Source of the DNA: Lawsonella clevelandensis
GTDB taxonomy: Bacteria; Actinomycetota; Actinomycetes; Mycobacteriales; Mycobacteriaceae
DNA length: 64,000 nucleotides
Direction: 5' to 3'
Assembly: GCF_001293125.1 (NCBI RefSeq)
Contig: NZ_CP009312.1
Location: forward strand, 1 to 64,000
In this document: positions 10,146 through 23,213 of the stretch, piece after piece
How the letters are laid out: the number at the start of each line of letters is the position of its first letter
Position numbering within the stretch: the stretch's first letter is position 1
Translations under genes and position numbers: made by a program
Notes under the pieces: generated by a model
What the model saw: only the letters and a program-made list of their open reading frames with translations
Told to the model about the DNA's origin: nothing
The model's database searches: none

Positions 10146-10916
10146 CTACTTCTTTAGACGAAGGAGTGTGAGAAGTTTCTCCCAACGAGACTGGACTCCC
10201 CAGAGGAAAACTCGGCCGAAGGCTTCGGTGATGATGTTTCCGCTCATCTTTGATTCACCGATTTCTCGCTCTGTGAAGGTGATGGGTACCTCGACAACGG
10301 TGAACCCAGCCTGAATTGCGCGCCAAGCGAGGTCAATCTGGAAGCAGTAGCCGACAGAGCCCACTGCGTCGAGGTCAATGGTCTCCAGAACCTCACGACG
10401 GTAAGCACGGTAACCGCCGGTAATATCGTTCAGCTTGGCACCCAACACGATGCGAGTGTAAATGTTGCCGCCACGGGACAGGATCTCCCGCTTCTTCGGC
10501 CAATTCACTACGGTGCCACCTGGTACATAGCGGGAGCCGAGCACCATATCCGCACCTTCATCAATGCGATCGAGCAGACGACAAAGTTGTTCAGGAGCGT
10601 GAGATCCGTCCGCGTCCATCTCGCACAAAACGGTGTAATCGCGCTCCAGCCCCCAATGGAAGCCAGCGATGTAGGCGCCCCCGAGGCCCCCCTTGCCCTC
10701 ACGATGCATGACGAAGATCGAGCCTTCGTTTTCGGCGGCCAGCTTGTCAGCGAGCTTGCCAGTACCATCCGGACTGTTATCATCCACGACCAAAATGTGG
10801 ACGTTGGGCTGAGCGGCCTGAACCCGTTCCACAATGAGGGGAAGATTCTCTTCCTCATTGTAGGTAGGGATGATGACCAGCGTACGGGCGCTTGGCTTCA
10901 CTTCATTTGCAGACAT
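10146..10916 (-). CDS. ppm1: Polyprenol monophosphomannose synthase Ppm1
   Basis: GT2-family glycosyltransferase (256 aa) that transfers mannose from GDP-mannose to polyprenyl phosphate. The product is the donor for lipoarabinomannan assembly and protein O-mannosylation. Visible signatures are [15 protein letters not shown] near the N-terminus, [10 protein letters not shown], the metal/nucleotide-binding CEMDADGSH (about residues 99-107) and the late [12 protein letters not shown]. No membrane domain is fused. In M. tuberculosis the enzyme is the C-terminal domain of a protein fused to Lnt; here, as in Corynebacterium, the two are separate, with lnt 58 bp upstream. Confidence 0.95.
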
Positions 10917-10974: not shown

Positions 10975-12651
10975 CTAAAGCGTAATTCTACGCTTCCTCC
11001 AGGCGATAATCGATCCTCCACACACCAACACCGCCAGAACACAGAGAACTCTATCCAGCCACGGCTGGATACGAGTGGCGGCAGTTCGCGTCTCGTAAAG
11101 AGACACTGTGCGAACGGCAAAATCCTGTTCATACAGGGAGGTCTCGTCCATAATAGCGCCGTCCGGACTAATAAACGCACTAGCCCCAGACGTTGCCGCA
11201 ACTACTACCCAACGGTGTAACTCCCGCGCACGGAACTGACTGATACCCAGCTGCTGGTAGGTCTCGTGAGAATAGCCAAAGGTCGCATTGTTTGTGGGGA
11301 CGGCTAACCAATCTGCACCATAGCGTAGGGCTTGCCGCCCACTATCCCCGAAAATGATCTCGAAACAGGTCGCGACACCGGCACGGGTGCCGTCAACTGG
11401 CATGACTCCAGTTCCCTTTCCCGCCTGAAAATTACCCGCCCAAACTGCATATGGAGAGATCTTTTCTATTAATCCCCGCAGTGGTAGATATTCTCCAAAG
11501 GGCTGAATATGGCGTTTCACATGACGTATACCTTGATAGCCATCACTAGTCCATAAGAGAATGGCGTTAAGCTCGGGATTATGTGACTCGCGTCCTAATA
11601 CCGCCCCCACCAAAATCGGGGCTCGAATGGCTCTGGCAGCACTGGTAATAAGTGCGCTGGCGTCAGGATTACCTAGAGGATCAATATCCGCGGAGTTCTC
11701 CGGCCACACCACAATGTCAGGTTGTGGCTGCTCCCCCATTCTTACCGCATCAGCCAGTCGGAAGGTTGCCTGCGCATGATTCTCCAACACTTCCATTCGA
11801 ATCGCATTGAATGTCAGCCCAGAGGTAGACACATCACCCTGAATAAAAGCGATGCGTCGAGTGCCAGTGGGTTCGGCATGAGCACGTTGCGAGGAGTCGT
11901 AGATCATCGAACCCGCAGTTAGGGAAAGTGCAATCAGTAGCACACTTACTGCAGGCTGGAGAACTTTGCGCGGGTGTTGCCGCGAATGCCACCAAGCTGC
12001 AACAGCATTCTCTCCAGTACGCCGTCTGCTGCGGACGGCGCCGTACGCAAGAAATAGTGCCCCTGTGGCCCCTATCAGGATAGTGTAAGCCCACATCAGC
12101 ACAAGGAAGGTTACCGCCGAGGTGGAACCCCACGGTGCGGCGCTGACAAGTGGGCTGGTCGACTGCCCATATGCGGGAGTCCCCCACGAAAAACCCCCAA
12201 AGGGAAACCGGGCTCGCACAGCTTCCACCGCCGTCCACCAGAGTGCACTTGCCGCCGCGGTGCGGAGTGAAAGGACCCCCCAAAGCCTCATGAAGTGGGT
12301 GATAGGAACCGTGATCACCACGACATACAGGGCCAAAATGATACATAAGGCAATCCAGGGCGGCTCTTCGACAAAAGCTTGAACCCACTGGAAAAGTGGT
12401 AGGTAGAGTGCTAATGCCCACACAAAACCTGCCTCTGCAGCGCACCAATAAAGGTTCCGTCGCGGCGTCGCTACAAGGAGGCCAAGGCTCACGAAGAGTA
12501 GTGCGCTGCCAATGATCCCCAGCGGCCAGAGGTTGTACGGCGCGAAACTAAAATAGCTTGCACATCCACCTACCGCAGGAACGATGATCATGGGACCTGA
12601 CAGCCTCACGGTGGAGCTGATCAGGGAGCGAGGAGAAGGAGTCGGCATCAC
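10975..12651 (-). CDS. lnt: Apolipoprotein N-acyltransferase Lnt
   Basis: Inner-membrane enzyme (558 aa) that N-acylates the lipobox cysteine of lipoproteins. An N-terminal block of about six membrane helices (residues ~20-230) is followed by a nitrilase-like domain and a final helix (~530-550). The catalytic triad can be traced as Glu in VVWPENSAD, Lys in HVKRHIQPFGEYLP and Cys in VATCFEIIFGD. The start overlaps the end of the cobN remnant (ATGA-type junction), so lnt-ppm1 transcription may still depend on the promoter and leader of that dead gene. Neighbouring ppm1 is its usual partner. Confidence 0.93.
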   Translation of the reverse strand: MMPTPSPRSLISSTVRLSGPMIIVPAVGGCASYFSFAPYNLWPLGIIGSALLFVSLGLLVATPRRNLYWCAAEAGFVWALALYLPLFQWVQAFVEEPPWIALCIILALYVVVITVPITHFMRLWGVLSLRTAAASALWWTAVEAVRARFPFGGFSWGTPAYGQSTSPLVSAAPWGSTSAVTFLVLMWAYTILIGATGALFLAYGAVRSRRRTGENAVAAWWHSRQHPRKVLQPAVSVLLIALSLTAGSMIYDSSQRAHAEPTGTRRIAFIQGDVSTSGLTFNAIRMEVLENHAQATFRLADAVRMGEQPQPDIVVWPENSADIDPLGNPDASALITSAARAIRAPILVGAVLGRESHNPELNAILLWTSDGYQGIRHVKRHIQPFGEYLPLRGLIEKISPYAVWAGNFQAGKGTGVMPVDGTRAGVATCFEIIFGDSGRQALRYGADWLAVPTNNATFGYSHETYQQLGISQFRARELHRWVVVAATSGASAFISPDGAIMDETSLYEQDFAVRTVSLYETRTAATRIQPWLDRVLCVLAVLVCGGSIIAWRKRRITL

Positions 12652-14219
12652 TCCATGGATCCTTCGGTGTCCAACAAGAGATCAGTAAGCTGGTTCACCA
12701 TCTGTGGATCGGGATTCTCCCAGAGTCCCCGTTGAACCGCTTCCATAAGCCGCTCACATATGCCATGTAATGCCCAAGGGTTGGCCTCTTCTAAGAAAGT
12801 GCGATTTTCTGTATCAAGGACATAGGAGTCCGCTACCGCGCTATACATCCAATCTTCCAAAACGCCTGTAGTCGCGTCGTATCCGAAGAGATAATCGACT
12901 GTGGCTGCTATTTCGAAGGCGCCCTTGTAGCCGTGCTTACGCATTCCTGCCAGCCAGCGCGGGTGAAGCACACGTGCTCTCACCACCCGTGTAGCCTCTT
13001 GGCTTAGGCTACGGTGCCGGACAGCTGACGGGCGGGTAGAGTCGCCGATATAGGAGTCTGGCTTATGACTGCGGAGAGCTTCCACTGTCGCCACCATGCC
13101 ACCGTGAAATTGGAAGTAATCATCAGAATCGAAGATGTCGTGTTCGCGAGAATCGACATTCTTCGTTGTGACGGTAATCCGTGCGAAATTGCGCCGCATA
13201 GCAGCACGTGCTTCAACACCAGCCATATTACGACCATAGGCGTATCCACCCCAGGTGGTGTACACCTCTGCAATATCTGTAGTTGTCTCCCACTGCCCAC
13301 TTTCCATCAGCTGGATAACACCAGCACCGTAGGTGCCGGGTCGTGAACCAAATATACGTGTCGTTGCATGGCGCCAGTTCTTTCCGCTACTTCCCTCCGG
13401 CTCATCAAGTAGGGCGTGAGCCCGGACATAGTTGTCTGCAGCATCCTCAGGGAGATTTGCCACAAGCCGCACGGCATCATCCATTAGTGCGATCGCAGCA
13501 GGAAACGCATCACGGAAAAATCCCGAAATACGGAGGGTCACATCGATGCGCGGACGACCCAATTCAGAAAGCGGAATAATCTCTAATCTGGTAATCCGTC
13601 GACTCTGGGCATCCCACACAGGACGGATCCCAAGCAAAGAGAGAACTTCGGCAATATCGTCACCGCTGGTCCGCATCGCGGACGTCGCCCACAATGAAAT
13701 GCCGACAGATTCGGGATACTGCCCGTGATCGGCACAATAACGGTCTAGCAGAGTCCGCTCTAAATCTTGACCAGTCTCCCAGGCGAGCTCAGAGGGGATG
13801 GCACGAGGGTCGAGGGCATAAAAGTTGCGTCCAGTCGGAAGGACCGACACAAGTCCGCGCAGCGGTGAACCGGATGGTCCGGGTGGCACTGCCGCACCGT
13901 CAAGAGCTGCTAGTACCTGGGGAATCTCCTGTCCTGTCTGAAACAGCCGTGGTACCACTATCTCACACAAAAACGTCAGTACCTGCTGTAGGCGTGGGGT
14001 ATCAATGGCTTCCGTAACTCCGTCAAAAGCTGCGCAATAACGATGGATAACATCGGTAACCAGTTGGGCATCCCACTGGTGTGCAGCCAAGCCCTCCACG
14101 AGGAAACGGGCATGTTCTTCTGCTGCTACCCCAGATGGGTTACGCCACACCCATGGGCGATCAGACTGAGCAGCCGCTAGCCCATCAGTATCAGAGGCGG
14201 AAAGTAAAACGGCACGCAC
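12648..14219 (-). pseudogene. cobN: 5'-truncated cobN (cobaltochelatase large subunit)
   Basis: The frame (523 aa, GTG start, stop codon in frame immediately upstream at 14226-14228) matches only the C-terminal part of CobN, normally about 1,200 or more residues. Diagnostic segments are LDPRAIPSELAWETG, SVGISLWATSAMRTSGDDIAE, RPRIDVTLRISGFFRDAFP, FGSRPGTYGAG, DSDDYFQFHGGMVATV and MRKHGYKGAFEIAATVDYLF. The whole N-terminal half, which carries much of the catalytic core, is gone; only ~35 bp separate this gene from the divergent cobG. The remaining frame is intact, perhaps because it still transmits transcription and translation to lnt. Chelatase activity is very unlikely. Confidence 0.88.
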
Positions 14220-14253
14220 ACGAACCTACTTTTTCAGCGACAATAACTCCCCC

Positions 14254-15469
14254 ATGGTACCAAGGAGCACGTGGGCTGACCGGCTGCGGGTGTTCAACAG
14301 ACTAGGCTACGGGGTGCACACCTTTATTCCTCGGCAAGAATCCGATCATTCCTGCCACGACTCGTGTCCAAGCACGCTGCGACTATTCGCCGCCCACGAC
14401 GGCGGCATTGCGCGCATCAGGAAACCAGGCAGCCTCTTCACTCCTGCTGAACTACGGTTCCTAGGGGATGCAGCTGTGCACTATGGGGACGGGTTCCTCT
14501 ATCTCTCGGACCGCTCGCACCCGCAGCTGCGTGGAGTCCGTAAGGGCGACCGGCATCAACGCCTTATCGCTGACATTGCAGAAGCTGGGCTGCTCCCGCG
14601 CCCAAGCCATGACAGTGTGCGCACCATCCTCGTCTCCCCACTCCCCTATGCGGGAGGCCCATCCGCTGACACCCTAGACCGTCTTGTTGACCAGCTCGAC
14701 CAGGCACTCTGTGCTAGCCCCGCGGTCGCAGATCTTTCCGGACGAACCATTATCGCTCTCGATAACGGAAGCGGCGACGTCTGCTACGAACGGCCAGACC
14801 TTGGGGCTGTGGCACAGCCCAACGGGCACTGGATGCTCATGCTGGCCGCTGTTCCCACCCCCCTCACCTGCACACACAATGATCTTGTAGAGGTTCTCGC
14901 CGCCGCAGCACAGTACTATGCAGAGTTTCCCCGCCAGCAGTGGCGGATGGTCGATGAGGAGCACTGTCGAGAGACAATTATGATGCGGCTTCAGGACAGT
15001 TATCCTCAGCAGTTTTACCAAACTCAGTGACGCAGACATATCACTCCCACCGCGTACCCAGCCCATCGCCGGTATCACAGCAAAGACCGTGGTAGCCGCA
15101 CAAGAACTAGCGGGCTTCGGTTACTCTGTGCGCTTCACGCCCTGGCACACCGTTGTAATCTATGACGTTTCAGAAGCTGCACGTGACGACCTGTGCACCG
15201 CCCTGACGCGTTTAGGGATGAGCATCGATCCACATCACCCGGCGAACTGGATCGGTGCCTGTGGAGGAAAACCGGGATGCCGCCGCGCGCATACCGATGT
15301 ACGCGCTGATGCTTGGCGGCTGATGTGCTCCCCTGACTATCAACCAGGAGTACGAATTCACTATGCAGGCTGTGCCCGTTGGTGCGGGCACCCGAATGAA
15401 CAACATTGGGAACGTCTCGCTACAGCACAAGGAGAGTATGTCGAAAGGCTCATGGATGCCGATGGGTGA
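14254..15469 (+). pseudogene. cobG: Frameshifted cobG (precorrin-3B synthase)
   Basis: Two overlapping frames together make one CobG. The first (14254-15030) has the N-terminal siroheme/nitrite-reductase-like half (ARIRKPGSLFTPAELRFLG, AEAGLLPRPSHDSVRTILVSPL, IALDNGSGDV). The second (in frame +1, reaching the TGA after 15466) has the C-terminal half with the iron-sulfur cysteines (CGGKPGCRRAHTDVRADA, YAGCARWCGHP). The shift falls at about 14984-15026; the TTTT run at 15013-15016 is the likely site, one extra T. The start may be the GTG at 14314 rather than the ATG at 14254, because the first 20 codons have no counterpart. Cysteine ligands persist, so decay looks recent. Confidence 0.85.
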
Positions 15470-15500
15470 ACCCCAGTAACTACGGGAGGATACCAGCCGC

Positions 15501-15699
15501 ATGGGCTATAGCCACACCAATTCGGGAGATGACATTTACGCTGAATCTTTCCGCATTATTCGGAAGGAAGCTGATCTCTCCAAATTTAGCCCCATACTTG
15601 AGCCCATTGCCGTGCGCATGATCCATGGATGTGGGCAGACTGACCTTTGTCGTATCGGCTCTCAATACTCTCGCCACCCCTTCAGAGAAAGAGTTCTAA
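15501..15699 (+). pseudogene. cobH: cobH remnant with internal deletion
   Basis: Precorrin-8X methylmutase is about 210 aa; only the two ends survive. The 5' piece encodes IYAESFRIIRKEADLSKF and VRMIHGCGQTDL, the conserved N-terminal region. The 3' piece, in another frame, encodes VVSALNTLATPSEKEF and the natural stop TAA at 15697-15699, two bases before the cobIJ start. The join is at about 15645-15650, so roughly 145 codons are missing and the reading frame is broken. A GGAGG ribosome site (15484-15488) is still present. Confidence 0.82.
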
Positions 15700-15701
15700 C
15701 C

Positions 15702-17266
15702 ATGTCTCGCTCTTACGATGAAGCCGCTGCTCACCCCAGACAATTACGGGGACGCCTCTCTGCCATCGGTGTTGGTCTAGGAGATTCCGAGCTTCTCACC
15801 GTCAAAGCCGTTCGCGCGTTGCAAGCCGCTGATGTAGTTGCCTATCACCAGGCCCCTGGACGCCTGTCCCACGCTCTGCGCACCGTCACCCCCCCTACCT
15901 CGACCACCAGCGACTGCTTGTCCTAGAGTATCCGGTGACCACTGGACCAACCTCCCATCCAGAGGGATACCAAGGAGCATTAGCAGAGTTTTACGACACG
16001 GCTGAGAGGCTGCTGCGAGCTGAGCTTGCGGCTGGCAAAACCGTTGCTCTTATCGCGGCTGGAGATCCCCTCATCTATAGCTCACAACAGCATCTCAGCC
16101 GCCGCCTCACCGGGGACTATCCCGTCGACATCATCCCCGGGATCAGCAGTATTCAAGCAGCAGCCGCTGCGACCAGGAGCGTATTGTGCGAGGATCGCGA
16201 CGTGTTTCGTGTCGTGCCGGCGACGTTGCCCCTTGCAGAACTCACCGCCCAACTGTGCAGTGGCGACCCGCTTGCGGTCCTAAAACTGGGGCGTACTACC
16301 GACACACTCGTTTCGGCGCTCCGCGCGGCGGACCGGTTAGAGCACGCTCTCGTCGTGAGCAATGCCAGCACGCCACACGAACACATCATTCCTTTGACGG
16401 AAGCGCTCAGTAAGGGGGAGCTACTCCCCTACTTCTCCGTCGTACTGCTTCCCTCTGCGACACTTGCCGACGGGGTTGTGCGCGAGGAGAATGCTCCGGC
16501 GGAAGGACGTGTTGATGTCGTGGGGTTGGGGCCCGGGGACGCCAAATTTCTCACCCAGGACACGGCGGATATTCTCGCCCAAGCTACTGATGTGGTGGGC
16601 TACGCCACCTATACACAACGAGTCTCGGTGAGGGAGGACCAGCACGTCCACAGTTCAGGAAACATGGTGAAACTCGAGCGTGCACGACTGGCGCTAGATC
16701 TAGCCGCTGGCGGAAAACGGGTGGTCGTTGTTTCGTCTGGGGATCCCGGTATGTTTGGAATGGTGACGGCACTAATGGAAGTTCTCGATACGCTTGATCC
16801 CCAGAGTGAAGATGCGGAGAGGCTAGCCCAGCTGCCGATAGAAATTCATCCCGGAGTCACAGCAGCTCTGGCAGCAGCCGCCCACGTGGGTGCTCCTTTG
16901 GGCCATGATTTTGCTGTTCTCTCTTTGTCAGACCGCATGAAGCCCTGGGGTACCATCGCACAGCGTGTGCAGGCCTGTTGTGATGCGGATATGGCATTCG
17001 CTGTATATAACCCCAAATCGCGGACACGACCGCACCAAATCGATGCCTTTATTAAGCTTTTGCACCACGCACGCAGCCCCGAAACTCTGATTATTAAGGT
17101 TCGCGCGGTAGGCTGTGAACAGGAACAATACAGTGTCAGCACGCTTGCCGACTTTACGAGTGAAGATGTTGACATACGCACTGTGCTTATCGTCGGGTCC
17201 TCCCGCACGCGCATAGTGGCCGTAGGTGACCGTCAACGGGTTTATACACCGCGGCGTTACGACTAG
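15702..17266 (+). pseudogene. cobIJ: Frameshifted cobIJ (precorrin-2 and precorrin-3B methyltransferases)
   Basis: Fusion of precorrin-2 C20-methyltransferase (CobI, first half) and precorrin-3B C17-methyltransferase (CobJ, second half), as in mycobacteria. CobI begins with GVGLGDSELLTVKAVRALQAADVVAYH, then the frame ends early. Restoring one base in the C7 run at 15889-15895 continues into PPYLDHQRLLVLEYPVTT and the long frame from 15935 with the CobI core, followed by CobJ (VDVVGLGPGDAKFLT, VVSSGDPGMFGM, EIHPGVTAALAAAA, FAVYNPKSRTRPHQ). Corrected length is about 521 aa. The 3' frame is otherwise uninterrupted, so the lesion is probably recent or prone to slippage. Confidence 0.85.
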
Positions 17267-17274
17267 GAGATGTA

Positions 17275-18600
17275 GTGGCAGATAAGCCAGTCAAGCCCCG
17301 TGTAGTGTGGGTAGATATCGCCAAAGGTATCTCAATTCTCACGGTCGTTTTCCTTCACTTATCGACCTGGGGTATCGACACTGGAAACTCACCTGGACTG
17401 TGGTACAACGTTTCTGCGAACTTCGTCCATTTGCGTTTGCCGCTTTTCTTCATGGTATCTGGCCTCTTTGCCGCTAAGATTCGGCGCTTTACCTTTGCTG
17501 AGCTCATCGTCAAACGCACGTGGCTGTGGGGCGTTCCTTTTATTCTGTGGGGAGCCATTGTTTTGCTGGCCTCCCACTTTATTCGCGGCACCTCTCTCGA
17601 TCACTTCTGGAGCCAATGGGGCCGGGGAATAATCTTTCCCGAAAACGGAATTTGGTTCCTTATGGCATTGCTGGTCTTCACCTTCGTCATTTGGGTATGC
17701 AGGCATGTGCGCGGGCGCTACGTGCTGGCAGTGTCCTTCGCCCTGACACTTATCGCCCCTTTTATTGGAGGTTCTGCGCAGGCTGGCCCCCTATGGTCGT
17801 GGACGCGCCTCGCAATGTACTTTTCCTCTTACTGCATTGGGTTATACGGCCGCGAGATTGTTATCCGCGTTGCCGCTAAGAGCCGCTGGTACCACGCACT
17901 TATTCTCTTTGCACTGCTCATAGTGATGGAGAAAGGCTACCGCTACATCAACAATGAGTTCCTGCACACCAGCGCTAACATTCTCCTCATCGGCTACGGC
18001 CTTATTACTGGCGTGGCGATCGCGGTAGCACTAGACGGTACCTACTTTGGAAAACTACTCTCCTACATTGGGCGACATACCTTGGAGATCTACCTGCTCA
18101 ACGAGATTCTCGTCTGGGTCTTCTATAAAGACATCTTCCCTCTAATCGACATTCACACCGGCAGTGACTTGTCCACCTGGCAAGAGGGTGAACTCTTCAT
18201 GAACCCGCGGGGCGTTCTCAGCTCGATGAACTTCTGGGCTCCGCTCATTGGGCTGGTCTTCGTGACGGGCGTTTCTCTGCTGATTCGGGAGCTGGTGCGC
18301 GGTTCTCGTCTCGACTACGTGTTCACCCCTCCCACTTTTGCCTGGATGACCCGCTGGGTGGAGGAGAGTATTGCACGTCGTGCGCAACGCCATGCAGAGG
18401 CACGTGCGCAGGCGGCGTCGCAAGGCCGCCAATACCATCCTGAGAATGACGAAGCTTTGCTTGCCGAGCCAGACGCTACTACCGAATTGCTTGCTTCTGA
18501 AAAGGGGCTTTTGGAAGAACGCGCGGCGCATCATCACAATGACGGAGATGACCATGCGCGGCGAAGCCAAAGCTCCCACCAACGGGAACAGGAATGCTAG
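17275..18600 (+). CDS. Acyltransferase-3 family membrane protein
   Basis: Integral membrane protein of 441 aa (GTG start, AGGAGATG just upstream, 8 bp after cobIJ). The acyltransferase-3 hallmark WVDIAKGISILTVVFLH with the catalytic-type His (about residue 28) is at the N-terminus, and about ten hydrophobic helices extend to residue ~350. A ~90-residue hydrophilic C-terminal tail ends in a His/Asp-rich stretch (AAHHHNDGDDHARRS). Family members acylate polysaccharides or lipids of the cell envelope; in Mycobacteriales some modify mycolate or arabinan precursors. The substrate is unknown here. It is not part of B12 synthesis even though it directly follows the decayed genes. Confidence 0.85.
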   Translation: MADKPVKPRVVWVDIAKGISILTVVFLHLSTWGIDTGNSPGLWYNVSANFVHLRLPLFFMVSGLFAAKIRRFTFAELIVKRTWLWGVPFILWGAIVLLASHFIRGTSLDHFWSQWGRGIIFPENGIWFLMALLVFTFVIWVCRHVRGRYVLAVSFALTLIAPFIGGSAQAGPLWSWTRLAMYFSSYCIGLYGREIVIRVAAKSRWYHALILFALLIVMEKGYRYINNEFLHTSANILLIGYGLITGVAIAVALDGTYFGKLLSYIGRHTLEIYLLNEILVWVFYKDIFPLIDIHTGSDLSTWQEGELFMNPRGVLSSMNFWAPLIGLVFVTGVSLLIRELVRGSRLDYVFTPPTFAWMTRWVEESIARRAQRHAEARAQAASQGRQYHPENDEALLAEPDATTELLASEKGLLEERAAHHHNDGDDHARRSQSSHQREQEC

Positions 18601-18789: not shown

Positions 18790-19548
18790 TTATCGGGGCA
18801 TTCTCCGCCACAGTGCGGTGGGAACGAATGGCATGATAGCGGCGAGGAGGCGTAAACGATTGGGCACCCATACTCGGTGTTTACCAGACCGAATAGCTTG
18901 ATAGACCTCGGCAGCAACCTGTTCTGCTGTCGATGACATGATGGCCGGATCCATACCTTGTGTCATCCGTCCGATAACAAACCCCGGTCGTGCCATCACG
19001 ACATTGATCTTTTCTTTGTGGGTGGCATCGATGAGGCCTGAGAGAAAGCCGTCTAATCCAGCCTTGGCGGACCCGTACACGTAGTTTCCGCGCCGTACGC
19101 GCCATCCGGCAATAGACGAGAACGCTACAAGCAGCCCGTGGGTATGTTTACGGAGGTACTCGATAGCAGCAGTAATCGTCACTACTTGGGCGGTGTAATC
19201 CGTGTACGCAATGCGATACGCCTCCTTCGGATCACGCTCCGCCTTATGTTGATTCCCCAGTACCCCGAACGCCACAATGATGGTGCTCACCGGCATGCCG
19301 CAGACTTTCTCTGCGCGCTCGTAGATGGAGGTGAGATCGTTTTCCGTCAGGGCATCCCATTCCAGGCAGTAGACCTGCTGCGCGCCTCCTCGGAGGAGAT
19401 CTTCAAAAGCTCCAACATCTTGTTGCGACGGTCGCTGTGCGAGGACAACTGGCCGTCCGTTGCAGAGTCTACTGGCGAGTGCCACCCCAATTTCGGATCG
19501 TCCACCCAGCAGGAGAATGCCACCTTCCGAGGGTTGCAGAGTCTTCAC
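18790..19548 (-). CDS. Short-chain dehydrogenase, DprE2-like (Rv2073c type)
   Basis: NAD(P)-dependent SDR of 252 aa. The nucleotide-binding glycine motif LLGGRSEIG (about residues 12-20), AFGVLGN, the catalytic Ser in FSSIAGW and the Tyr-x3-Lys in YVYGSAKAGLDGF (about 153-166) are all present, so the enzyme should be active. Overall it resembles DprE2, the reductase that finishes decaprenylphosphoryl-arabinose synthesis. The position beside cob genes and helY matches the paralogue Rv2073c rather than the dprE1-dprE2 locus. It lies 16 bp downstream of helY and is probably cotranscribed. Confidence 0.85.
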   Translation of the reverse strand: MKTLQPSEGGILLLGGRSEIGVALASRLCNGRPVVLAQRPSQQDVGAFEDLLRGGAQQVYCLEWDALTENDLTSIYERAEKVCGMPVSTIIVAFGVLGNQHKAERDPKEAYRIAYTDYTAQVVTITAAIEYLRKHTHGLLVAFSSIAGWRVRRGNYVYGSAKAGLDGFLSGLIDATHKEKINVVMARPGFVIGRMTQGMDPAIMSSTAEQVAAEVYQAIRSGKHRVWVPNRLRLLAAIMPFVPTALWRRMPR

Positions 19549-19564: not shown

Positions 19565-22195
19565 CTACAGCGATTCGGCCACGATACCGCGCTGGATGGC
19601 TTTTTTCGCTTGGTAAGAACAGTCTACGAGGTGTTGATACTCTGCGGTATCGAGTTTGGTGAGCTGTGACAGAAGGTCCACGATTTGGCGAATATGTCGG
19701 ACAAAGTCTCCAGGGGTGACGCTCAGCCCAAACATTTTTGCGACGATGAGGCACTCTTCGAGAGGGGCTCCACTCGCCCAACGGTAGACCGCTGTTGTTA
19801 ATCCACCGTAAAGGGGGCGGGACAATAACACGTCGTGTTTCCGCTCCAGGCGGTGAATGTCACGGGCGATGCGTTGGGTATCGGCAAAAGTATCGGCGAG
19901 TACCTCTGTTTGTGCTGGAGGCCAGTAGTGGTCCGTCTCTTTCCGGGCTTCTCCGGTAATCGCTGAGATCACCGCGGCGAGCTCCGCGGGATCCAACCCA
20001 TCCCATGCGTGTTCGCGCACTGCTTCTGTGCAGATAAGGTCAGTTTCGCAGTAGATGAACCGGAGAAGTGTACCAGCGTCAGTAAGCTGATAATCCGAGG
20101 TGAGATAGCCAGCGTCATGCAGAATGCTGCACACATGTACAAAGTTGGTGGCGAGAGTTCCTGAGGAGTGGTCAATGTGGTGTTGGAGAGCCTCACGCTG
20201 TTGGAGTAGGCGGGCTCGATCACGGTTGAGTGCGGCAATCTCAGCTTCTGTGAGGTGGCCGTGCAAGGGATGGCAGCGTACCTTCTCTCGCAGATGGTGC
20301 AGGTGGGCTGGAGGATGGAGGTTCTTTTCTCGGAGGGCATCTTTGGGGATACGAATGTTACTGTGTGCGAGTTCCCGACGGGCTAGCTTGACGGTGTGTG
20401 CATCATCTGCGGCACACTTTTTCTCGAGGTGGATATGGCCAAGGGAGTGTCCATTATGTCGAACATTGGAGAGAGGGGTTGCTCCCACCCAAGTGGATGT
20501 CACGACGAGAATACGGTTTTTGCGAGGACGTTCGAGTACCACCCCAAGGATAGGTTTCTTCCGGACACTGATACAGATGACATCACCGCGACGCAGTTTA
20601 GCTAAGGCCCCTTTGGAAGCACGTGGCTTGTCTTTGTTCCGCTTCTTTTCCCATGCTTTTGTCTCCGCGTTGAGTTTGGCAATAAGGTCGAGGTAGTCGG
20701 ACATTTCGGGGGAAATATCGGCGTCTACTGCTGCGAGCTGTTTATCTACCCGTGTCAGCTCTCGTTGCGCGTGTACGACCGCCGCATCGTTTTGGTACTG
20801 CCCAAAGGATTGGTGAAGCAGCACACGAGCATCTTCATAGCTATGGTGAGCAAGCAGGTTGACGACCATGTTGTAGCCAACCTTAAAGCTTGAGCGAAGT
20901 GGTGACGGGTCCGCATTGTACAGGTCTGCGAGACGGTCCAGGTCCACTTCTTGGTTGTAGTAGACGATAGCGTGACCAGTGGCATCGATACCGCGGCGCC
21001 CGGCTCTGCCAATAAGTTGCGCAAACTGGCTGCTGGTGAGTTCTTCATGGGTGGTGCCGTTAAACTTCGTAAGCTTTTCCAACACGACGGCACGTGCAGG
21101 CATGTTGATACCGAGCGCTAGAGTGGAAGTGGCGAAGACGAATTTTAGCAGTCCTCTACTGAAGAGTTCTTCCACAACTTGTTTGAACAGGGGCAGCATA
21201 CCTGCATGGTGGGCAGCAAAACCACGGCCAAGCGCGGCCCTCCACTGCGAAAAGTGCAGGGTTTCGCGGTCACCTTCAGAGAGGTGGTGGCATCGTTCGT
21301 CGACATGTTGGTAGATGCGCTGCCGCTCTTTTTTCGTCGTCAACGTGAGACGAGAGCGGGTACATTGGGCCAGTGCAGAGTCGCATCCCGCACGGGAGAA
21401 AATGAAGTCGATTGCGGGCAGAAGGTTCTCTCGTTCAAGTGCTTCGACGATACGAATTCGGTTCGGAAAACGTTCATGGTGGTTGGGGCTGTGGAGTACT
21501 CGGTCCACGCGGTCTTGCAGGTGCTGTGAGACATGCTTACCGTTTTTGCTGAACAGCGGATAGATCGTGGAATTGAGAAGCACGTTAGCTGTGAGAGGTA
21601 CTGGTCGAAAGTCTGAACAGACGGTGCTTGTGGGGCCTACAACCGCAGTGATCCAAGCGGAGAATTCGGCGGTGTTCCCAATAGTAGCGGAGAGTGCAAT
21701 GAGCTGGACGCCATCAGGAAGTGAGAGGATGACTTCCTCCCAGACTGCTCCGCGGAAGGCGTCCGCAAGATAGTGCACTTCATCCATCACCACATAGCGG
21801 AGGTCGTGAAGAGTGCTGCTGCCTACATAAAGCATGTTACGGAGTACTTCCGTCGTCATGACAACGACGGAAGCATCCCCATTAATAGATTGATCTCCAG
21901 TGAGGAGACCAACGTTATCTTTTCCCCACCGCGCACAAAAGTCTCGATATTTTTGATTCGACAGGGCTTTGATGGGGGTTGTGTAAAACAGTTTTTCAGA
22001 CTGGTGAAGGGCTAAAACGGCAGCTGCCTCAGCGATAACGGTTTTCCCCGCTCCGGTAGGCGCGCTGACGACCACATTGTGTCCCTCAGCAATATGGGAG
22101 ATAGCACGCTGTTGAAATTCATCGAGGGAGAAAGGGCGACGCGCAATAAAGGCGTCGAGAATTTCTTGTCTAGCGTGGAGCGTTGTCTGTTCCAT
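19565..22195 (-). CDS. helY: Ski2/Mtr4-like RNA helicase HelY
   Basis: Superfamily 2 helicase of 876 aa. Motifs run in order: Q-type FSLDEFQQRAI, Walker A SAPTGAGKT, motif II DEVH in MDEVHYLADAFRG, motif III SATIGN and motif VI QLIGRAGRRGID, followed by the Ski2-type C-terminal helical region. Actinobacterial HelY is thought to act in RNA turnover or quality control. The ATG at 22195 is chosen because GAGGAAG precedes it at good distance; an upstream ATG at 22255 would add 20 residues read inside tatC. The gene overlaps the 3' end of tatC by 26 bp, so it is translationally tied to the tat genes. Confidence 0.93.
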   Translation of the reverse strand: MEQTTLHARQEILDAFIARRPFSLDEFQQRAISHIAEGHNVVVSAPTGAGKTVIAEAAAVLALHQSEKLFYTTPIKALSNQKYRDFCARWGKDNVGLLTGDQSINGDASVVVMTTEVLRNMLYVGSSTLHDLRYVVMDEVHYLADAFRGAVWEEVILSLPDGVQLIALSATIGNTAEFSAWITAVVGPTSTVCSDFRPVPLTANVLLNSTIYPLFSKNGKHVSQHLQDRVDRVLHSPNHHERFPNRIRIVEALERENLLPAIDFIFSRAGCDSALAQCTRSRLTLTTKKERQRIYQHVDERCHHLSEGDRETLHFSQWRAALGRGFAAHHAGMLPLFKQVVEELFSRGLLKFVFATSTLALGINMPARAVVLEKLTKFNGTTHEELTSSQFAQLIGRAGRRGIDATGHAIVYYNQEVDLDRLADLYNADPSPLRSSFKVGYNMVVNLLAHHSYEDARVLLHQSFGQYQNDAAVVHAQRELTRVDKQLAAVDADISPEMSDYLDLIAKLNAETKAWEKKRNKDKPRASKGALAKLRRGDVICISVRKKPILGVVLERPRKNRILVVTSTWVGATPLSNVRHNGHSLGHIHLEKKCAADDAHTVKLARRELAHSNIRIPKDALREKNLHPPAHLHHLREKVRCHPLHGHLTEAEIAALNRDRARLLQQREALQHHIDHSSGTLATNFVHVCSILHDAGYLTSDYQLTDAGTLLRFIYCETDLICTEAVREHAWDGLDPAELAAVISAITGEARKETDHYWPPAQTEVLADTFADTQRIARDIHRLERKHDVLLSRPLYGGLTTAVYRWASGAPLEECLIVAKMFGLSVTPGDFVRHIRQIVDLLSQLTKLDTAEYQHLVDCSYQAKKAIQRGIVAESL

Positions 22196-23213
22196 TGTCG
22201 GCGGCTTCCTCGTCGTCGATGTCGACATCGGCCCATGCCCAACGTTCGTGGACATCGACCTGTGTTAGTGGCTGATCGTCCGGCAGCAGCGCCGGTGCAG
22301 CGATAGTTGAAGCAGCTACCTCCTTCCCACTTGCCGTTAGAGTGGTAGGAGCAACTGCATCAGGAGTTCCTAAAGGAGAGGCGCTATCGTCGTCGGTGTC
22401 TATCCACGCAGGGCGTTCCTTCTTCTTGCGTCTATCGTGCACACGGCAGATCTGGATAGCGATCTCTTGTAGCACAGTCAAGGTAAGCGCTAATGCGGTC
22501 ATAGAGACGGGGTCGCCACCAGGGGTGACGAAAGCAGCAAAGCAGAAGAGGCAGAAAATAGCGATTCGTCGCCACTTCTTGAGTTGCTCGTATTGCACTA
22601 CACCCATGATGTTGAGGGTGACGATGAGCAGCGGCAGTTCGAAGCTCATACCGAAGATAACGATGAGCGCCAACATGAAATTGAAGTATTGCGTACCCGA
22701 AAGCGCAGTGATCTGGACGTTATTGCCCATATTGAGGAGGAAGTCCAACGCCTTTGCGACCACGAAGTAGGCTAGTACCGCCCCGCAGATGAAGAGGAAT
22801 GACGCAATGCCCACATAGAGGAGGGCGAACTTCTTTTCCCTCTTGTACAGACCAGGTGCGATGAATGCCCACACTTGGTAGAGCCAGAAGGGGCTAGCAA
22901 AGACGCAACCGGCAACAGCTCCCACTTTAAGGCGCAGCATGAACTGCTCGAATGGGCCAGTTGCGAGCAGCCGGCAGGTATCGTCATTACCCAACTGGAG
23001 ACGTGCTTCTGGGGGAATCGCACAGTAAGGTCCCCGCAGAATCTCACCGAGGCTAGGAATTACGCCAATACGCAGGTCGTACCACACGAACCCAAAGATC
23101 ATCGCCAGGAAAATGATCCCGACGATGAAAATAATGCGTTTCCTAAGCTCTCGTAAATGCTCCGTCAACGCCATCTTTTCTTCTGGCGTGCGGATGTGTT
23201 TTTTTTGAGCCAA
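22170..23213 (-). CDS. tatC: Twin-arginine translocase subunit TatC
   Basis: Six-helix core of the Tat protein export system (347 aa), which binds twin-arginine signal peptides. The N-terminal cytoplasmic LTEHLRELRKRI motif with its essential Glu is intact, as is FGMSFELPLLIVTLN in the central loops. After the sixth helix (about residue 260) comes an unusually long hydrophilic tail of ~85 residues, acidic and Thr/Ala-rich, as seen in several mycobacteria and corynebacteria. It lies 33 bp downstream of tatA. No tatB is in the window, so that gene must be elsewhere. Confidence 0.95.
   Translation of the reverse strand: MAQKKHIRTPEEKMALTEHLRELRKRIIFIVGIIFLAMIFGFVWYDLRIGVIPSLGEILRGPYCAIPPEARLQLGNDDTCRLLATGPFEQFMLRLKVGAVAGCVFASPFWLYQVWAFIAPGLYKREKKFALLYVGIASFLFICGAVLAYFVVAKALDFLLNMGNNVQITALSGTQYFNFMLALIVIFGMSFELPLLIVTLNIMGVVQYEQLKKWRRIAIFCLFCFAAFVTPGGDPVSMTALALTLTVLQEIAIQICRVHDRRKKKERPAWIDTDDDSASPLGTPDAVAPTTLTASGKEVAASTIAAPALLPDDQPLTQVDVHERWAWADVDIDDEEAADNGTDNAPR

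Follow-up and report, generated by a model that had tools for sequence, protein, structure and literature searches.

The window analyzed here is a 64-kb stretch, bases 1–64000, of the Lawsonella clevelandensis genome, a single contig of 1,860,551 bases with a completeness rating of 99.98%. It contains remains of the cobalamin (B12) biosynthesis genes, with a cobN remnant on the reverse strand facing cobG, cobH and cobIJ on the forward strand. The cobN remnant (12648..14219, − strand) encodes a frame of 523 amino acids (aa), without a stop in 522 codons, that matches positions 642–1089 of the 1090 positions of PF02514 with 639 bits. For comparison we used 18 stretches from relatives. In every one of them, the N-terminal end of CobN matches residues 2–34 of the frame, with a mean local score of 57.6 compared with a highest score of 40.6 among 200 shuffles; the matched position spans 2–237 in the relatives, some of whose mechanical open reading frames (ORFs) begin too early there. 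Residue 32 aligns with residue 730 of the 1,208-aa CobN in one relative (L050), and the tail is 56–66% identical to the relatives. The native first ~30 residues thus continue without a change of frame into the final ~490, which makes the lesion an in-frame internal deletion of ~700 codons with both ends native. An earlier note on this DNA had reported that cobN lost its 5′ half; that half is not lost as such, since its start is retained.

On the forward strand, cobG is split between two frames. The first part (14254..15030, + strand) covers positions 3–215 of the 388 in TIGR02435, its homology beginning at about 14359 in tblastn with CobG from three relatives, and the second part (15089..15469, + strand) covers positions 285–387 in a different frame. 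Judged by eye, the homology switches frame at about 15000–15016. Downstream, a single ORF (15501..15926, + strand) holds the start of cobH, ~50 residues matching positions 1–40 of 196 in PF02570, and in the same frame the start of cobI, matching positions 2–44 of 212 in TP_methylase. No 3′ remnant of cobH was found by tblastn with CobH of three relatives. cobI is split into 15501–15926 and 15935–16480 or so, and three-frame translation places the frame switch at seven consecutive C (15889..15895, + strand). The last ORF (15935..17266, + strand) contains the rest of cobI (TIGR01467, 72–228 of 230) followed by a complete cobJ domain (TIGR01466, 2–238 of 239; 273.7 bits against a cut-off of 246.35), so that within cobIJ only the cobI part is broken. 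The earlier note had seen four adjacent genes each disabled by a different lesion. The frameshift in cobG and the deletion in cobH stand, as does the homopolymer frameshift in cobI, while cobN was misread and the damage to cobIJ spares its cobJ half.

The order of these remnants is that of intact clusters. Of the 18 stretches from relatives, 15 show divergent cobN and cobG..cobIJ, relative G033 being counted by its stretch L046 together with L074; the exceptions are L050 and L051, without a cobG or cobIJ neighbor, and L056, with cobG only. The same arrangement occurs in 65 of 80 named loci from actinobacteria, including those of Mycobacterium gastri and other mycobacteria. These are the best 80 of at least 585 confirmed candidates from a contig scan with a CobN alignment, and 72 of them extend for 8 kb or more on that side; a scan of the genome contigs with the CobIJ piece alone had returned no relatives, and the CobN alignment was used for this set.

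The outer neighbors are shared as well. On the cobN side lie lnt, encoding apolipoprotein N-acyltransferase (10975..12651, − strand; TIGR00546, 205 bits, over the cut-off), whose GTG start overlaps the cobN stop, and a glycosyltransferase gene (10146..10916, − strand) that we take to belong to the dpm family. By tblastn, this pair is found on the cobN side in 6 of the 18 stretches. On the cobIJ side, an SDR gene (18790..19548, − strand) is complete in five relatives (in G033 by its second stretch) and partial at the edge of L049. The ORF beyond it (19565..22255, − strand) was named a helicase gene by eye, and G033 has a 925-aa helicase two genes beyond SDR. Between cobIJ and the SDR gene, G033 carries cobK, cobM and cobL, whose place is here occupied by an acyltransferase-3 family gene (17275..18600, + strand; PF01757). 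This gene has no match at E 1e-4 in the 18 stretches or the 80 named loci and may have been acquired. The other tetrapyrrole methylases of the genome are cobA, CobF and an RsmI-type 16S rRNA methyltransferase, so cobL and cobM were not found in the genome. cobK was found in neither of two genomes searched, the genus being represented in the collection by this genome and the draft congener G001 (85% complete).

Two further loci hold the rest of the pathway. At 232–248 kb (L044) lie open cobO and cobA genes and a cobB with an in-frame internal deletion of ~180 residues. The cobaltochelatase ATPase gene is interrupted by TGA (L044:11136–11138) within an otherwise contiguous alignment and later changes frame. 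cobQ has a TAG (L044:15138–15140) in a contiguous alignment, its match ends at residue 341–349 of about 495, and no later part was found. At 1,696–1,712 kb (L073), a ~46-residue cobU start leads into the final ~120 residues of cobT, read in a different frame, and these pieces adjoin an open cobS. Neither a complete corrin-ring gene set, as in a cobalamin producer, nor the intact cobU, cobT and cobS portion of a cobinamide salvager is present. Of the genes that the earlier note named outside its four, cobK, cobL and cobM were thus not found, cobQ is broken and cobT is a piece; cobS is open. Damage is pathway-wide: some ten lesions of various kinds are spread over three loci, and three genes are wholly absent. 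The VWA part of the chelatase remnant (L044:10501–10659) reads DTFGS where we would expect the metal-binding motif DxSxS, and may carry missense damage also.

Enzymes that use B12 were sought in the same genome. The B12-binding domain PF02310 has no match in it, and the cobalamin riboswitch RF00174 was found in neither of the two genomes searched. The sole match to NrdJ is below the cut-off and is the class Ib NrdE (1,238 bits), and MetE is present above its cut-off. By PF02310 and NrdJ, no MetH, methylmalonyl-CoA mutase or B12-dependent reductase was found. In the draft congener, one contig (C23, 8,297 bases; L009–L013) carries five B12-binding domains and the remainder of the draft none; this contig is possibly contamination.

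In a survey of 301 genomes of the family, CobN is present in 270, and its presence is therefore ancestral. Among the family matches, a best E-value different from 0 is confined to this genome and G267; completeness of the other CobNs rests on this E-value, coordinates being known for part of the matches. G267 (3.2e-221, two matches) may have another split cobN. At least 14 genomes of one genus (g3) are without CobN. Loss of CobN is thus frequent in the family, and a half-present CobN is rare in this sample.

Seven genes that were compared with the congener, cobS aside, have 62.5–92.9% protein identity, and DNA comparison of the window at 8–22 kb with this 85% complete draft gave no match. cobS is open in both genomes (L073:7415–8209 here; L070:1348–2151 in G001, 267 aa), at an identity of 41%, far under the 79% and 68% of neighboring genes. 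Directly beside cobS, the congener has a homolog (68% identical) of the gene located past the cobU/cobT pieces in this genome, so those pieces are already gone there.

To date the decay, we counted 2 nonsense codons in 2,568 codons of the cob remnants. Assuming kappa 3, a GC-to-AT bias of 1–3, simultaneous release of the genes and frames kept open by nothing, this corresponds to a neutral divergence since release of 0.7–0.9%, with a one-sided 95% upper bound of 2.2–2.9%. For the window pieces alone (none in 1,228 codons) the upper bound is 2.1–2.7%, and without cobN the estimate is 0.9–1.2% with an upper bound of 2.9–3.8%. On these counts breakage looks recent, at a neutral divergence near 1%. 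Constraint may tell of a longer history. The ratio of divergence to relatives over divergence among relatives is 1.45–1.79 in six of seven cob pieces and 1.27 in the first cobG piece, compared with 1.30 for lnt, 0.99 for dpm and 1.19 for SDR; three controls are few, and the first cobG piece falls below lnt. The cobN tail, on which alone the cobN columns were counted, keeps 184 of 203 columns invariant in the 18 relatives (0.906; lowest left-out relative 0.927), and the intact cobJ keeps 55 of 61 (0.902 against 0.91). Retention lies under that of every relative in five of seven cob pieces, the exceptions being the second part of cobI (0.828 against a lowest relative of 0.763) and the second part of cobG, which has one such column. 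As most remnants are more diverged than the neighboring controls, weakened selection probably predates the lesions, with breakage coming later. The earlier note called the process recent and ongoing. "Recent" agrees with the ~1% neutral divergence and upper bounds of 2–4%, though relaxation is probably older; "ongoing" is favored only indirectly, by the draft congener, which lacks the cobU/cobT pieces beside its cobS.

We consider it very likely, at roughly 90%, that a cobalamin pathway, complete at one time, is being taken apart in place. Directly observed are the lesions, the conservation of gene order and the absence of the B12-use markers searched for. In the proposed sequence of events, B12-using enzymes would no longer be detectable, methionine being made by MetE and deoxyribonucleotides by the class Ib reductase. 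With no detectable B12-using enzyme left, selection on the cob genes would be relaxed. Unrelated lesions, namely internal deletions, frame breaks, nonsense codons and whole-gene loss, would then pile up at the three loci. The B12 users would have been lost before or together with synthesis, and the breakage would be recent and the relaxation older. Several points weigh against this account. cobA, cobO, cobF, cobS and cobJ are still open, and a cobS that is open in the congener also is poorly explained by pure neglect. Most cob remnants exceed in divergence what a purely recent release would give, and the lesions are known from the assembled sequence alone. Finally, the negative results on B12 users exclude QueG, EutBC, PduCDE and B12 uptake, which were not searched for; QueG is reported by Shelton et al. 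(PMC6461909) to be nearly absent from Actinobacteria.

Errors of sequencing or assembly could produce apparent frame breaks and deletions. The cobI break does fall on the run of seven C, and any single frame break could be such an error. Roughly ten lesions of differing type across three loci, the complete absence of three genes and the lack of any B12-use marker are nevertheless hard to obtain in this way. Provided that this genome belongs to either of the two published L. clevelandensis strains, it was moreover assembled from about 12.5 million 100-base Illumina reads (PMC4675956), which makes homopolymer errors unlikely even though gaps were closed by hand, and we regard error as a very improbable source of the pattern as a whole. 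Just as improbable is that the remnants work, be it as a split CobG, a split CobI and an internally deleted CobN in a reduced pathway, or as a CobN piece with another function. Their open frames and the 184 of 203 invariant columns kept by the cobN piece would fit such a role, but that retention is below every left-out relative, cobH, cobT and cobU are mostly missing, the genome lacks cobK, cobL and cobM, and the chelatase partner is itself broken. Least probable, and hardly credible to us, is a partial cluster acquired from elsewhere, for which no supporting observation turned up: order and outer neighbors are as in the relatives, the CobN tail is 56–66% identical to theirs, and other cob loci are damaged too. 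Synteny contradicts partial transfer unless the whole region moved, and the earlier note was right to see loss in place, given the divergent order in the relatives' stretches and the named loci and the same outer neighbors where these are visible.

Within the dismantling of the pathway, it is conceivable, though rather unlikely, that operon polarity filters the decay, dead cob pieces persisting as translated leaders of the live genes lnt, cobA and the acyltransferase gene. These three genes are probably live, and each follows directly on a remnant. cobN and lnt overlap at GTGATG, with GAAGGA ahead of lnt inside cobN; cobB and cobA overlap at ATGA; and the AGGAG of the acyltransferase gene overlaps the cobJ stop. 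In relatives, 0.7–3.4 kb separate the cobN and lnt frames in 6 of 6 cases where both are visible, so this overlap is derived. The cobN and cobB deletions, which immediately precede probably live genes, keep the frame. The cobU/cobT and chelatase breaks, which lie upstream of genes belonging to the dead pathway, do not. The cobH deletion preserves the frame into cobI, a gene that is itself broken farther downstream. Given how few the events are, the in-frame pattern is no more than suggestive. A scan for promoters and terminators was at chance (2 against 2.3 expected and 3 against 3.0 expected) and is neutral in this respect. Short repeats inside the region, considered as a mechanism of deletion, resemble chance matches, and we infer no mechanism from them. 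The locus offers a small natural test of whether the need for translation into downstream genes shapes gene decay.

A literature search, which left papers matching Lawsonella and vitamin B12 out of account, found no paper linking Lawsonella with cobalamin, and a term search of the main text of the canine Lawsonella genome paper (PMC12114289) found neither cobalamin nor vitamin B12 mentioned. Known systems provide three comparisons. In the M. tuberculosis complex, cob genes are reported to decay with B12 uptake and MetH kept (PMC10924821). The likeness lies in decay of the same pathway in a host-associated member of the same taxonomic order; the differences are that no B12 user was found here and that the number of broken genes is much larger. 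Nasal Corynebacterium species are reported neither to make nor to use cobamides (PMC11651106). They resemble this genome in their incomplete or absent modules, metE in place of metH and lack of cobamide-dependent enzymes, yet their modules are described as nearly absent, whereas the broken genes of this genome can still be read where they stand. Cobinamide salvagers (PMC6461909) likewise have a partial pathway but keep contiguous portions of it, whereas in this genome the genes left open are scattered, with cobU and cobT broken. The kind of event is therefore already known, and what is new is an early-stage case in which the loss of a many-gene pathway can still be read. In it the B12 users seem to have disappeared no later than the makers, while the tubercle bacilli instead stopped synthesis and still import and use B12.

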